Of a stretch of 48,797 nucleotides of DNA, positions 1,475 to 10,154 are shown piece after piece. Under the pieces are notes generated by a model, which made no database searches, was not told where the DNA came from, and saw only the letters and a program-made list of their open reading frames with translations. The DNA is from Nitrososphaeraceae archaeon. GTDB lineage: Archaea > Thermoproteota > Nitrososphaeria > Nitrososphaerales > Nitrososphaeraceae. The translations under genes and the position numbers were made by a program. The stretch covers positions 1 through 48,797 of the forward strand of contig JADDOW010000092.1 of the NCBI GenBank assembly GCA_016782225.1. Direction: 5' to 3'. Position 1 is the first letter of the stretch; each line of letters opens with the position of its first letter.

Positions 1475-1539
1475 TGACCAATTTTTTGACCAGAATGACG
1501 GGAAAATGACCAGAATGACCAAATTATTTTCTTTATAAG
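1475..1539 (+). promoter_or_regulatory. TGACC half-site array and TATA-like box
   Basis: Five TGACC/TGACG half-sites lie on the + strand at 1475, 1487, 1496, 1507 and 1516. The 13-mer TGACCAGAATGAC occurs twice with starts 20 bp apart (1487 and 1507), about two helical turns. A TATA-like TTTATAAG follows at 1532-1539, about 30 bp before the TTG start of the helix-turn-helix gene. The position directly upstream of the core promoter suggests an operator or activator site, perhaps for the encoded protein itself. Repeats and spacing are seen; regulation is inferred. Confidence 0.5.
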
Positions 1540-1569: not shown

Positions 1570-2448
1570 TTGAAAATAATTAAAACTACAATTGATCAAG
1601 TGATTCAAGGATGGTTAAATGGAAATACAAGAAACCAATTAGCAGAAGAACTCGGCATATCTTCAGGCTCTGTATCAAAAATATTAAAAGAGTGGGATCA
1701 GAATATAGGTCACCCTGAAGCTAAAGAATTAAGAGAATTTTCGGTTTGGGTCAAAAAATCAGGGATGACTGTTCCCCAGTTTGTTAAGGCATTTAGGATT
1801 CATCAGCTACTAAAAAATCTCATGGTTGAAGATGGGACTAACTGCAATGTTGAGGAGGATCTGGATAACTTTCATTCATTTGTCGTAGAGACCTTTAGGG
1901 GATGCAAGGATCTGGGAATTTCACCAAAACACCTTATTGAATGCATAGGTGATTTGATTGAATTCTCAAATTCAAACCCATCTTTAACTTCTTCTGCTAA
2001 TGATATAGATATGATTAACAATCAGGGTTCTGAAATGACCTCCAATTCCCATATAACAGATAAAAAACCTGCCTATATCTCCAAAATCTCAGAATACATA
2101 AATCAAAAAAGGCAACATAATGAGCAAATCGATCAACAAACATTGGTTTGTCAGGACGCAATAATCCATTATAGATGTGAGGCAATAATAGCTAAAAATA
2201 GACTTGATGGGATTTTAGAGGACAGCAATATCACAATAACCCATGTGCGCTGGCTGGATTCACTAAGAAAAGAGTTATCGCTAAAACGTGGAATCGATGT
2301 CATAGAAAAAGTAAAAGAGTTTGCAAAAGTAAAAAATGATTTAGAGTCTTTTGGGTATGATCCTAACCTATTGTTAAATCAGCTATCAAATAAAAACTCG
2401 CTTGAAGACGAACAAAAAGCCTACTTGATGATATCAACCATTATCTGA
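1570..2448 (+). CDS. Helix-turn-helix protein, N-terminal part of a split coiled-coil gene
   Basis: The N-terminus is a helix-turn-helix (NTRNQLAEELGISSGSVSKI, about residues 19-38), followed by a conserved helical region and coiled-coil-prone segments. From memory, such proteins form a multi-copy family in Nitrososphaerales and normally run to 500-600 residues as one chain. Here the frame stops at 292 residues, and the expected continuation (SLLDDINHYLIRRDTLRDEN) is in the -1 frame from base 2418, right after an A5 tract at 2414-2418. The gene is therefore probably the front part of a protein of about 534 residues, split by a one-base deletion, a sequencing error or programmed slippage. A DNA-binding regulatory role is inferred from the HTH. 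The start is TTG. Confidence 0.7.
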   Translation: MKIIKTTIDQVIQGWLNGNTRNQLAEELGISSGSVSKILKEWDQNIGHPEAKELREFSVWVKKSGMTVPQFVKAFRIHQLLKNLMVEDGTNCNVEEDLDNFHSFVVETFRGCKDLGISPKHLIECIGDLIEFSNSNPSLTSSANDIDMINNQGSEMTSNSHITDKKPAYISKISEYINQKRQHNEQIDQQTLVCQDAIIHYRCEAIIAKNRLDGILEDSNITITHVRWLDSLRKELSLKRGIDVIEKVKEFAKVKNDLESFGYDPNLLLNQLSNKNSLEDEQKAYLMISTII

Positions 2449-2462
2449 TAAGGCGGGACACC

Positions 2463-3173
2463 TTGAGAGATGAAAATTTTGATCTTGGGACTCAAAACAG
2501 CAAGAATAGGCAAATTCTGGCTGTTGTCAGTGAATTAAAACTTATGGGATTTGGGTTACATGAGCTAAAGCAACTAAAGTTTACTGTTGTTGAAATTGCG
2601 GAGGCAAACAACATTCCAGGTGACCTTGCTGTATCCCACTTTCTTAAGGAGGTAGAGAAGCACTATGACGATAAATTGGGTCTAGAAAACAAAGTTAATG
2701 AATGCAAAACCAAAATTTATAATTTAGATGATGAGATTGCCAATAAGCAATTTATTTTGCAGTTACATCCACTCATAGGACCAGCATTATCAAGGCTCCT
2801 TCAGAACGGAATGGGTGTGGAGGACATTATAGGCATTCACAATCTAGTCCAAAGCTGCAAAGAAAATACCTTTAATTTTGGTATGGACCGGGAAACAGAT
2901 AGAGAAAGCATCAAAGATACAGACAACAACAACAACAACAACAACAAAACCAATAGGCCATACTGCATGACACCACTAACAGATGAACTAAAAAAATATG
3001 GCGGTATCAAGTTGGCCATTAAAGCAAAATCAGAAAAATTAGACAAACTGAGCAAAGAAATCGATGTGTTAGAGAGACAAAAACAGGATCTCCTTGCCTA
3101 TTTCAAAGGTGCAAGAAATGCTATCAATACTGCAAATAGTATGTTTTTTTTACTCCAAAAAAATCTTGGATAA
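2463..3173 (+). CDS. Coiled-coil protein, C-terminal part of the split HTH gene
   Basis: The first usable start is TTG at 2463, but coding-like sequence extends back in this frame to about 2418, where it would join the preceding gene. Residues 10-60 contain QILAVVSELKLMGFGLHELK and VVEIAEANNIPGDLAV, then a long coiled coil, the segment LHPLIGPALSRLLQNGM, an asparagine run from an AAC microsatellite, and a second coiled coil to the end. This order matches the C-terminal half of the long thaumarchaeal HTH/coiled-coil family as I remember it. It lacks a DNA-binding domain of its own. If the frameshift is real, this half is either a separately started fragment or dead; if it is programmed, it is the tail of one protein. 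Confidence 0.6.
   Translation: MRDENFDLGTQNSKNRQILAVVSELKLMGFGLHELKQLKFTVVEIAEANNIPGDLAVSHFLKEVEKHYDDKLGLENKVNECKTKIYNLDDEIANKQFILQLHPLIGPALSRLLQNGMGVEDIIGIHNLVQSCKENTFNFGMDRETDRESIKDTDNNNNNNNKTNRPYCMTPLTDELKKYGGIKLAIKAKSEKLDKLSKEIDVLERQKQDLLAYFKGARNAINTANSMFFLLQKNLG
2923..2947 (+). repeat. (AAC)n microsatellite encoding Asn run
   Basis: A perfect trinucleotide tract of AAC units inside the coiled-coil gene, encoding a run of asparagines between two helical regions. It behaves as a flexible linker and is a likely site of length variation between strains. Confidence 0.8.
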
Positions 3174-3492
3174 TTTTGCCGGATGTGTAAAAGGCAAAAT
3201 CAATGTTACTTATTTTCTGTATTTGCCTTTACATGTTCATTTGATACGCCCTTCTCCTGTTTTCAAACGAAAGGATAAAAAAGAAAAAAAACACAAAAAG
3301 AAAGGAAAAGTGCGATTAAAGGATTAAGAAATAACATTATAACCTTTATGGTATTGTGTAACCATCCATCAAACAGCATTCTGGATTTTGCAAATTGCAA
3401 TAATGTATTTCTAGGATTCTTTAAATGAGTAGTCCAAAAGATTCTATGATAACCTATTAGTTAATAAGCAGTAAAAATACAAAATTGAATGT
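3174..3492. other. Intergenic, purine-rich tract
   Basis: This stretch between the coiled-coil gene and the phosphatase-superfamily gene holds a purine-rich run at about 3268-3315 and otherwise AT-rich sequence. An open frame of 77 codons across it (3094-3327) overlaps the upstream gene, has no family features and ends in a low-complexity lysine-rich tail, so I do not accept it. Confidence 0.5.
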
Positions 3493-4878
3493 TTGAATAA
3501 CAAAACCAATGGTTATAACAGGTCAAAATATGTTATTGTTTTGGATATTGTCGGACTAGAGGTTTCCCATATCACCTCAGGATTAATCCCATCGATTGCA
3601 AATATTGCAAACAATAACGGTGGTGAATACGGATACCTAAAGCCTGTTTTTCCTTCTGTCACATCCACTGTTCAAGCAAGCGTGTTATCAGGAAAACACC
3701 CAAATGAGCATGGCATAATATCAAACGGACTGTATGATAGATATAACTATCAGGTTATGTTTTGGGAGCAATCAAGCAAGTTGGTCCAAACTGATAGAAT
3801 ATGGGATTTATTAAAGAAAAAGAACCTAAATATAAAAACTGCGGTATTGTTTTGGCAAAACACAATGTTTGCAAATTCTGATTATGTAATTACACCAAGG
3901 CCCATACACCTAGAGAATGGGGGCATGGATATGTGGTGTTATTCCAGGCCACCTAACTACTATGAGGAGGTGGCATCGAAAATTGGTGAATTTGACCTAA
4001 AAAGTTACTGGGGTCCGTTTGCATCATTCAAATCAACTGAGTGGATATCAAAATCGGTTGAGTTTACCATTGAAAAAAACACGCCTAACCTATTATTCGC
4101 CTATTTTCCCCAGCTTGACTATTCTTCTCAAAAATTCGGCAAGAATAGCCCCAAAGTAAAGGATGACCTAAAGAAAATAGACGGGATTGTTGATTCCATT
4201 GTTAAAAAAACTGAGCAAATTGGGATAATTGATGATACCCAGTTTATCATTTTTTCTGAGTATGGGTTCAATGACGTAAATGACGGAATATCCATTAACA
4301 GGATACTAAGGGATAATGGGCTGCTTGCAACAAGAACAATCAACAACAAAGAGTACATTGACTTTGAATACAGTCAAGCATTTGCAATGGCTGACCACCA
4401 GGTAGCAAACATATATTTGAATAAGCCAGAGAATAAGAATTATGTAAAGAAAATACTGGAAGATGCACAGGGTATAGAGCGAGTTTGCGATGATAAGGAA
4501 AAGCAGGACCTAAAGATAGATAGTTACAGAAGTGGGGATCTCATCGCAATATCAAACAGGGACAAATGGTTTAGCTATTATTGGTGGAACGATGATGATA
4601 AAGCCCCAACCTTTACAAAAACTGTTGACATCCACAGAAAGCCTGGATATGATCCTTTGGAGCTGTTTATCGACATGCAGAAAAAAAGCATATCTTTTGA
4701 TACTCGGTTGGTTAAGGGCTCCCACGGCAGACCTTTCGATTTAATAACTGGTGAGGGCTTGTCAGCATATGTTTCAAATAAGAAAATTGAGAAGGATAAT
4801 CAAGACAACATATTCCAAAATAACAATATATTAAGCTGTATGGATTTGTTTGAAATCATAAATAAAAACTTCTCTTAA
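3493..4878 (+). CDS. Alkaline-phosphatase-superfamily hydrolase (nucleotide pyrophosphatase/phosphodiesterase type)
   Basis: A 461-residue, apparently cytosolic enzyme of the AP superfamily, without signal peptide or membrane segments. Asp18 in VIVLDIVG is the first metal ligand. FPSVTSTVQASVLSGKHP, with Thr57/Thr59, carries the nucleophile region, followed by the usual NEHGI. Later metal-site segments are FPQLDYSSQKFG, FSEYGF, MADHQVANIY and GSHGRP near residue 411, and VDIHRKPGYDP is a family block. The substrate is unknown; relatives cleave phosphodiester or phosphate monoester bonds. The gene begins with TTG and stands alone, with a Trm112-like gene and a TIM-barrel sugar isomerase downstream. 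AP and sugar-isomerase genes also sit together in bacterial ebo clusters, but shared function here is speculation. Confidence 0.85.
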   Translation: MNNKTNGYNRSKYVIVLDIVGLEVSHITSGLIPSIANIANNNGGEYGYLKPVFPSVTSTVQASVLSGKHPNEHGIISNGLYDRYNYQVMFWEQSSKLVQTDRIWDLLKKKNLNIKTAVLFWQNTMFANSDYVITPRPIHLENGGMDMWCYSRPPNYYEEVASKIGEFDLKSYWGPFASFKSTEWISKSVEFTIEKNTPNLLFAYFPQLDYSSQKFGKNSPKVKDDLKKIDGIVDSIVKKTEQIGIIDDTQFIIFSEYGFNDVNDGISINRILRDNGLLATRTINNKEYIDFEYSQAFAMADHQVANIYLNKPENKNYVKKILEDAQGIERVCDDKEKQDLKIDSYRSGDLIAISNRDKWFSYYWWNDDDKAPTFTKTVDIHRKPGYDPLELFIDMQKKSISFDTRLVKGSHGRPFDLITGEGLSAYVSNKKIEKDNQDNIFQNNNILSCMDLFEIINKNFS

Positions 4879-6136: not shown

Positions 6137-6973
6137 ATGGCTTTTTCATATTCTATCACTCTATCTTCTTTTTTAAATATTGAAGAAATCTGCAAAACTT
6201 TGGAAAAATTATCCGCAATAGGTTTTAACCAACTTGAAATGTTTGGCGAACCTGATGAAGCAAATTTAAAGCAAATAAGGGATGTTTTACTATCTTTTAA
6301 TTTTAAAGTCATAGGCGTTACCGGAATGTGGGGAAAGATAAGTCCTTTAGGATGGAAACGAAGGTTATTAAGTAATGATGTTTCCTTTAGAAAGTACTCA
6401 GAAGATTATGTGATAAAATGCATTGAGATGTGTAGTTATTTAGATGGGGATAAAATAAACATTTGTTTATTTTCAGATCCTATATATTCTTTTGATGTGA
6501 CTCACAGGCTTATTTCACGGAATGATAAAAGGAAGGTTCTTACAAAAAGTTTTTCTGTTCTGAATAGTTTAGCAAACCGCTCAAAAGAATATAAAATTGA
6601 TTTATTATTGGAGCCCTTAAACCGATACTCTACGCCATATTGCTCAAACCTTGAGGACGCATTATTTGTGGTAACTAACTGTGAAAATCTGGGCATTATG
6701 TTGGATACCTATCATATGAATATAGAAGAAGATTCTTTTGAGGACACTATTTTGAAATCAAAAGATTTCTTGTCCCATCTGCATTTTGCGGATAACAACA
6801 GGAAAATGCCAGGTTTTGGTCATATAGATTTTGAGAGAATCATATCAACTCTAAAGGATATGTCTTATTCTGGAACGATAAGCTTTGAGCCAAATGTTTC
6901 CTGCATTAACTATCAAAAAGATTTATCCTTGGGCATAAAGTTCCTGGAAAGTATTGAATTAAAATATCAATAG
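6137..6973 (+). CDS. Sugar phosphate isomerase/epimerase, TIM barrel
   Basis: A 278-residue protein of the xylose-isomerase-like TIM-barrel family (AP endonuclease 2 superfamily, related to D-tagatose 3-epimerase and IolE). The four expected metal ligands can be seen in order: Glu in LLLEPLNRYSTP, Asp in IMLDTYHMNIEED, His in LHFADNNRKMPGFGHIDF and Glu in ISFEPN. This arrangement normally binds Mn2+ or Mg2+ and catalyses ketose or inositol-derivative epimerisation/isomerisation. The exact sugar cannot be told from sequence. ATG start, soluble, no signal peptide. It is a monocistron by spacing, downstream of the Trm112-like and phosphatase-superfamily genes. Confidence 0.85.
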   Translation: MAFSYSITLSSFLNIEEICKTLEKLSAIGFNQLEMFGEPDEANLKQIRDVLLSFNFKVIGVTGMWGKISPLGWKRRLLSNDVSFRKYSEDYVIKCIEMCSYLDGDKINICLFSDPIYSFDVTHRLISRNDKRKVLTKSFSVLNSLANRSKEYKIDLLLEPLNRYSTPYCSNLEDALFVVTNCENLGIMLDTYHMNIEEDSFEDTILKSKDFLSHLHFADNNRKMPGFGHIDFERIISTLKDMSYSGTISFEPNVSCINYQKDLSLGIKFLESIELKYQ

Positions 6974-9419: not shown

Positions 9420-10154
9420 ATGTATCTTATCTTGTTGGTGTCTATGAGCAGTAAAAATATTATTTTAAAAAAAAACATGGGTTTTCTTTTAGTAGCGATA
9501 CTATCAGTAGGAATTGTTACAGAAATAAGTTTAATTTCATATGCCAGCGCCCTCAATTACTATTTTAATTGTGTTACAAAACATGTCAACAAGGGTCAAA
9601 ATTTTGAAATGCAAGATGCATTTGTATGCTACGATAATGTATTCAAAGGGGCTCAAAAATACTCAAATGAACCATATCAAAATCCCGATTTGACGAATCT
9701 AGATAATATTAAGCCAGTTGCAGACTATACTTCAGATGCTTCTACAATTGATGATGAAACAACAGATAAACCAATAATAACACCCTCCAAAGTGGAAGAG
9801 GAAGCCGAGACATCAAACGGCAATCCAGCAGCAGAAGGCGCAACTGAGACATCAAACGGCAATCCAGCAGCAGAAGGCGCAACTGAGACATCAAACGGCA
9901 ATCCAGCAGCAGAAGAAGAAAAGGATTTACAGTCAGGTGGAACTGAAAGCGACGCTAAACCACTTACATCGGAAGAAACTCCAAATGTCGGCATTGCAGA
10001 TAAACCATCTTTTGGACCTCAATCTCAAAGCCCTGTTAATGAAAACTTTAACACCAAAGATTCACCAAACCTAGGGTCAGATGCTGGTGTGTTTGAAATT
10101 TCACCATTTTACAAATCGTTTGATTTGCCATTCACAGCTGTAATACCCCAATAA
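9420..10154 (+). CDS. Secreted protein with 13-residue tandem repeats
   Basis: The N-terminus has a lysine-rich stretch followed by a hydrophobic signal sequence (GFLLVAILSVGIVTEISLIS) ending in YASA-L, a plausible signal peptidase site. Translation could begin at residue 1 or at Met9 (9444). The mature part starts with a short region holding two cysteines (FNCVTKHV and FVCYDNVF), then becomes acidic and Thr/Ser/Pro/Asn-rich. It contains a 13-residue unit, ETSNGNPAAEGAT, in two full and one partial copy. This looks like an extracellular, probably flexible or glycosylated surface protein. No catalytic domain is visible and no function is assigned. Confidence 0.7.
   Translation: MYLILLVSMSSKNIILKKNMGFLLVAILSVGIVTEISLISYASALNYYFNCVTKHVNKGQNFEMQDAFVCYDNVFKGAQKYSNEPYQNPDLTNLDNIKPVADYTSDASTIDDETTDKPIITPSKVEEEAETSNGNPAAEGATETSNGNPAAEGATETSNGNPAAEEEKDLQSGGTESDAKPLTSEETPNVGIADKPSFGPQSQSPVNENFNTKDSPNLGSDAGVFEISPFYKSFDLPFTAVIPQ
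9807..9917 (+). repeat. 39-bp tandem repeat, 2.8 copies
   Basis: Two identical 39-bp units (9807-9845 and 9846-9884) and a partial third (9885-9917) encode the ETSNGNPAAEGAT repeat. The units are identical at base level, so the duplication is recent or maintained, and copy number may vary between strains. Their GC content is visibly higher than the surroundings. Confidence 0.9.

Follow-up and report, generated by a model that had tools for sequence, protein, structure and literature searches.

Directional short repeats that are set at helical spacing beside the gene of their presumed binder are familiar from plasmid iterons and from the ParR-parC system, and region 4 of bacterial sigma factors reads the hexamer TTGACA. 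ArdK, a helix-turn-helix (HTH) repressor of plasmid R388 whose HTH resembles a sigma factor, binds direct repeats with TTGACA arms and a natural 4-bp spacer at promoters (PMC9723621). A different kind of precedent is fucA1, the interrupted alpha-L-fucosidase gene of Sulfolobus, in which relatives within the Sulfolobales have conserved the slippery region (PMC8211752). Here we describe a locus that invites comparison with each of these, in a 48,797-nucleotide stretch of a Nitrososphaeraceae genome (hereafter, the window). Our overall best explanation, to which we assign a probability of roughly 0.8, is that the window holds a pseudogene of a protein family most of whose members are preceded by a putative operator array of their own. 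On sequence grounds, the family appears to consist of lineage-specific, paralogous HTH and long coiled-coil proteins of Nitrososphaeraceae, which are soil ammonia-oxidizing archaea. The features of the locus are as follows.

1475-1520, forward strand: candidate operator of five TGAC half-sites, at 1475, 1487, 1496, 1507, and 1516 (spacing 12/9/11/9)
1532-1538, forward strand: TATA-box-like TTTATAA, ~11 bp past the last half-site and ~32 bp ahead of the start codon
1570-2418, forward strand: 5′ part of the broken gene (HTH, helical N-domain, and start of the coiled coil), with a TTG start codon
Residues about 10-46 of the 5′ part: HTH, sigma4/homeodomain-like
2414-2418, forward strand: first lesion, an A5 tract shorter by one base than in the syntenic orthologue (the alignment has its gap at 2418/2419)
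2418-3146, forward strand: 3′ part in the -1 frame, with the remaining coiled coil and the conserved block MGFGLxELKQL...AVxxFLKxVExxYDxKLG
3144-3151, forward strand: second lesion, a T8 tract with one base too many for the family frame (from the C-terminal alignment)
3148-3327, forward strand: C-terminal tail, out of frame with 2418-3173 and lying within the open reading frame (ORF) 3094-3327

Two ORFs of the window, 1570-2448 (292 amino acids, with the C-terminus EDEQKAYLMISTII) and 2463-3173 (236 amino acids), connect through the -1 frame at A5; read from 2418, this frame encodes SLLDDINHYLIRRDTLRDEN and leads into the second ORF. A first-pass annotation of the window had proposed this split and join, and our searches bear it out. 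The join cannot be put down to chance, since both halves match the same intact relatives, in order. Searched alone, the 5′ half found matches in 30 of 61 related genomes and the 3′ half in 26 of 61; nearly all fell within one family (f1), and the exception, from elsewhere in the order, was weak. In the intact relatives, the two halves follow each other within a single ORF of about 540-660 codons. We aligned 27 uninterrupted relatives (549-658 codons), as the annotation had advised; they run through the junction in one frame and none is split at the A5 site. In one relative (L108), the junction segment is missing through an in-frame deletion. The annotation had also named the observation that would undo its proposal, namely homologues in which the halves are separate genes with their own starts. 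This arrangement was looked for and rejected, as no relative has separate starts at the junction.

Comparison with the sister species located the break. The syntenic orthologue in sister genome G001 (L072), which has the same flanks and 88.7% nucleotide identity, is one base longer at precisely the A5 site and reads in a single frame across it. L072 is itself broken by six lesions, none in common with the window copy, including a stop in its HTH; the gene has therefore apparently been lost independently in the two lineages. A custom frameshift-aware alignment, which we used to place the lesions, revealed a second one in the window copy, where an extra T in the T8 tract at 3144-3151 severs a C-terminal tail of ~59 residues. 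This tail, in frame 1 (codons 3148-3327), begins FYSKKILDNFAGCVKGKINVTYFLYLPLHVHLI and has 94% DNA identity to the G001 orthologue. Hence, the continuous product of ~534 residues that had been predicted from the healed A5 frame holds up as to continuity and fails as to completeness, because family members are ~50 residues longer and the difference is encoded past the second frameshift. Between the two lesions, at about 2920-2947, lies an ACA/AAC microsatellite encoding an Asn run, which differs in length by 12 bp (four codons) between the two orthologues.

Two marks of a pseudogene are found here: uninterrupted homologues, and more than one independent disabling lesion (A5 and T8). We consider it very probable that window positions 1570-3327 are a recently inactivated family member, which two independent indels, a one-base loss at A5 and a one-base gain at T8, would have broken. 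Loss of a base at A5 was among the readings first offered, and the extra base in the orthologue, the continuous relatives, and the independent lesion at T8 all speak for it. Also offered was slippage, by which, as in Sulfolobus fucA1, programmed -1 frameshifting or transcriptional slippage at A5 would yield the full-length protein. At this A-run, a P-site AAA can in principle re-pair, and -1 frameshifting does exist in archaea (PMC8211752). However, the 0-frame sequence A|CAA|AAA|GCC contains no X-XXY-YYZ heptamer, the RNA downstream is not unusually stable and forms no significant stem (fold z = -1.5), and the site is not conserved, no shift being used by the orthologue or the intact relatives. 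A slip at A5 would moreover leave the tail out of frame because of the T8 frameshift, and the lesions of other copies lie at scattered places. We therefore regard slippage as extremely improbable.

The remaining reading of the first-pass annotation was an error of sequencing or assembly at one or both homopolymers, the gene being intact in the organism. That both indels fall in homopolymer tracts (A5 and T8) and that the draft genome comprises 118 contigs are in keeping with such an error, but five neighboring genes compared with the sister genome contain 0 gapped codons in 1,222, and other copies in the same genome (C94, C77, and C23) are disrupted by in-frame stops and not just by indels. 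The dN/dS ratio of the window copy against its orthologue is likewise raised, at 0.42, relative to 0.13-0.31 for six neighboring genes, yet it is not 1. Together these observations make an error very unlikely. Both parts of the gene have a dN/dS of about 0.4 (0.41 for the N-part), values that may reflect past constraint followed by relaxation. Two other genes of the window drew our attention. A TIM-barrel gene at 6137-6970 has a dS of 0.55 to the sister genome where flanking genes have 0.04-0.13, possibly through local recombination or replacement, and the ORF at 9420-10154 encodes a tandem ETSNGNPAAEGAT repeat behind a possible signal sequence.

In the window, the candidate upstream switch persists, and a protein made from the gene would be cut short, keeping the HTH domain and half the coil. 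DNA binding by such a shortened HTH product is conceivable, and one may ask whether the 292 residues are functional alone, competing naturally for the array. In the window, nothing is broken in the HTH domain, the TATA-like site, or the array, and the dN/dS of the N-part is below 1; constraint can, however, predate the break, and the HTH of the orthologue has a stop. We find a working competitor improbable, and a pseudogene remains our reading of the coding sequence.

Decay of this kind is common in the family. Of the 60 copies we scored, at least 21 have multiple lesions (two or more), which are scattered along the gene; single lesions are less sure, owing to edge effects and to false frameshifts in diverged stretches. 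Within one and the same syntenic group, the gene is retained in some species and lost in others. In a group whose neighbor is RadA-like by eye, L100, L109, L118, and L122 are intact and L102, L106, and L116 broken, and in a group with a transporter-like neighbor, L098 and L108 are intact and L111 and L117 broken. The window's genome itself holds two intact copies (C78 and C93) along with the window copy and C94, C77, C42, C23, and C28, which are broken or fragments. No neighbor is common to all syntenic groups, each having its own.

The five half-sites at 1475-1520 form the sole array of this type on either strand of the window, and the array of the G001 orthologue is 20 bp shorter, with one pair gone. 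Regions upstream of family genes carry directional arrays of TGAC or TGAAC half-sites, whose spacing mostly alternates between 9 and 12 bp, giving a period of about 21 bp, or two helical turns. On the gene strand, the density of TGAC reaches 26/kb at -100 to 0, compared with 3-5/kb elsewhere, while the opposite strand has 3/kb; TGAC pairs 9 bp apart reach 7.2/kb within 100 bp of the gene start, are almost absent elsewhere, and are absent from the opposite strand there. Chains of three or more half-sites precede 36 of 50 family genes, as against 7 of 2,500 dinucleotide shuffles and none of the 123 upstream regions of other ORFs. Among upstream regions with a recognized TATA-like site, most have a gap of 3-5 or 10-15 bp between the end of the array and that site. 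Scans of 61 genomes placed about 26 of about 40 strict arrays genus-wide directly before a family gene (about 0.01 expected), a count that was assigned by hand from coordinates and excludes TGAAG-containing arrays, which are mostly coding-repeat-like.

About a dozen arrays have no adjoining family gene. Some of the remaining arrays overlie family-gene remnants (e.g., L209, L221, L222, L223, and L224), and the solo arrays comprise L208/L213 and a short repeat in genome G004. The first is a five-unit TGACC array conserved in two species with no family gene downstream (L208, about 4720-4790, G000:C35:31747-31790; L213, G001:C279:2728-2762), possibly a target in trans. The second is a repeat of ~110-210 bp headed by a TGACC array; G004 has five copies of it (L214, L215, L216, L217, and L218) without a family ORF, a transposase-like ORF lying behind the repeat in L218. 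In another genus of Nitrososphaeraceae, longer, near-perfect 21-bp repeat arrays (TGACCTATCTGACCTCTTATT) directly precede family genes (L228 and L229), from which it follows that the array is older than the genus.

What the proteins might do at these sites is suggested by their N-terminal domain, for which structure prediction returned helices only (mean pLDDT 81, pTM 0.54), with helices 5-16, 21-28, and 32-46 making the HTH; the full-length AlphaFold model (pTM 0.26) served for secondary structure only. Family members match HTH_23, HTH_28, and sigma-70 region 4 models with weak to moderate scores. From the sigma-region-4-like HTH, and from the binding of ArdK to TTGACA direct repeats, we infer that the TGAC array before a family gene is bound by the protein of that gene; the array, a candidate by sequence, is probably that protein's operator. 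In the mechanism we propose, the intact protein would bind its own array through this HTH, the coiled coil would hold an oligomer across direct repeats at intervals of about 9 bp (one helical turn) and 21 bp (two turns), and the protein would thereby control its own promoter, by repression or activation, and perhaps also a few solo arrays in trans.

The period of ~21 bp and the position beside the gene recall plasmid iterons and parC, and the arrays might instead be iterons or centromere-like sites, with the family representing plasmid-derived replication initiators or partition proteins scattered in the chromosome. Family copies are indeed dispersed, often broken, and frequently near contig ends, and a few adjoin transposase-like genes. 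Against this origin, the family matches no replication or partition family and none was found in viral contigs at the sensitivity used, and the arrays lie on one strand at a restricted position before the gene; we judge it unlikely. Viral origin was considered as well and rejected: viral contigs were unmatched with family query A2 at the sensitivity used, and PHROGs returned weak HTH matches only.

Rather than by the family protein, the TGAC arrays could be bound by another, shared regulator. Solo arrays exist without a family gene, and the link between residue and half-site described below could be phylogenetic. A single regulator would not easily explain why the half-site type varies by subfamily (TGACG, TGACC, TGAAC, and TGACT), nor does it sit well with the lack of an array in all 123 other upstream regions, so that we think this reading rather improbable and keep to binding by the family protein itself.

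When mapped on a tree of the N-terminal domain, half-site type requires 10 changes against a shuffled mean of 24, TGAAC having at least two origins or losses. One position of the recognition helix is S/T in 17 of 17 TGACG proteins and F/Y/H in 10 of 10 TGAAC and 6 of 6 TGACT proteins, with TGACC proteins mixed; this link is not separable from common descent, as there are only two supported independent pairs. We lean toward a picture in which each paralogue has its own TGAC-type array, half-site and recognition helix change together and so insulate the paralogues, and gain and loss of copies go on in every species.

As far as the searched libraries and papers show, a family with self-linked arrays of this kind is undescribed. 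Matches in Pfam, NCBIfam, PHROGs, and PDB were confined to generic HTH or coiled-coil entries, no fold match reaching E 0.001; a scan of the genome contigs with the window protein as query gave no match, and the literature searched on the family, the arrays, and broken copies in these archaea contained nothing relevant. The frameshift itself is ordinary, and its lesson is that relatives should be aligned before an ORF split at an A-run is read as slippage. The part worth following is the family with its self-linked arrays: through the array, this large unnamed family of soil nitrifiers would acquire a predicted DNA target and a testable mode of action, and its paralogues form a natural set whose DNA specificities and operators seem to have diverged in step.

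Set beside the described systems, the window gene shares with fucA1 an interruption, in an archaeal gene, at an A-run; it differs in having no heptamer, no conserved slippery region, a second lesion, and an orthologue without the shift. Unlike iterons and ParR-parC, the family arrays are chromosomal and dispersed, with no family match and no replication or partition partner gene seen. Cbp1, the archaeal CRISPR-repeat-binding protein, also has a multi-helix HTH and binds repeats, but its model spans 135 positions without a long coiled coil, and the matches to it are very weak and far below cut-offs (NCBIfam E 0.005; structure 2lvs). ArdK shares with the family an HTH and a TTGAC-type direct-repeat operator at a promoter, the family's operator being a candidate, and Foldseek gave weak matches to it (7bbq/7bca). 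The match to the KorA/ArdK model (PF16509) scores 14.7 bits, below the gathering cut-off of 26.7, and where ArdK, of the KorA family, has ~95 amino acids and acts at bacterial sigma70 promoters, these archaeal proteins have 540-660, mostly coiled coil, and their arrays place three to six half-sites before a TATA-like site. The likeness to ArdK would therefore be an analogy of mode, not one of family membership.
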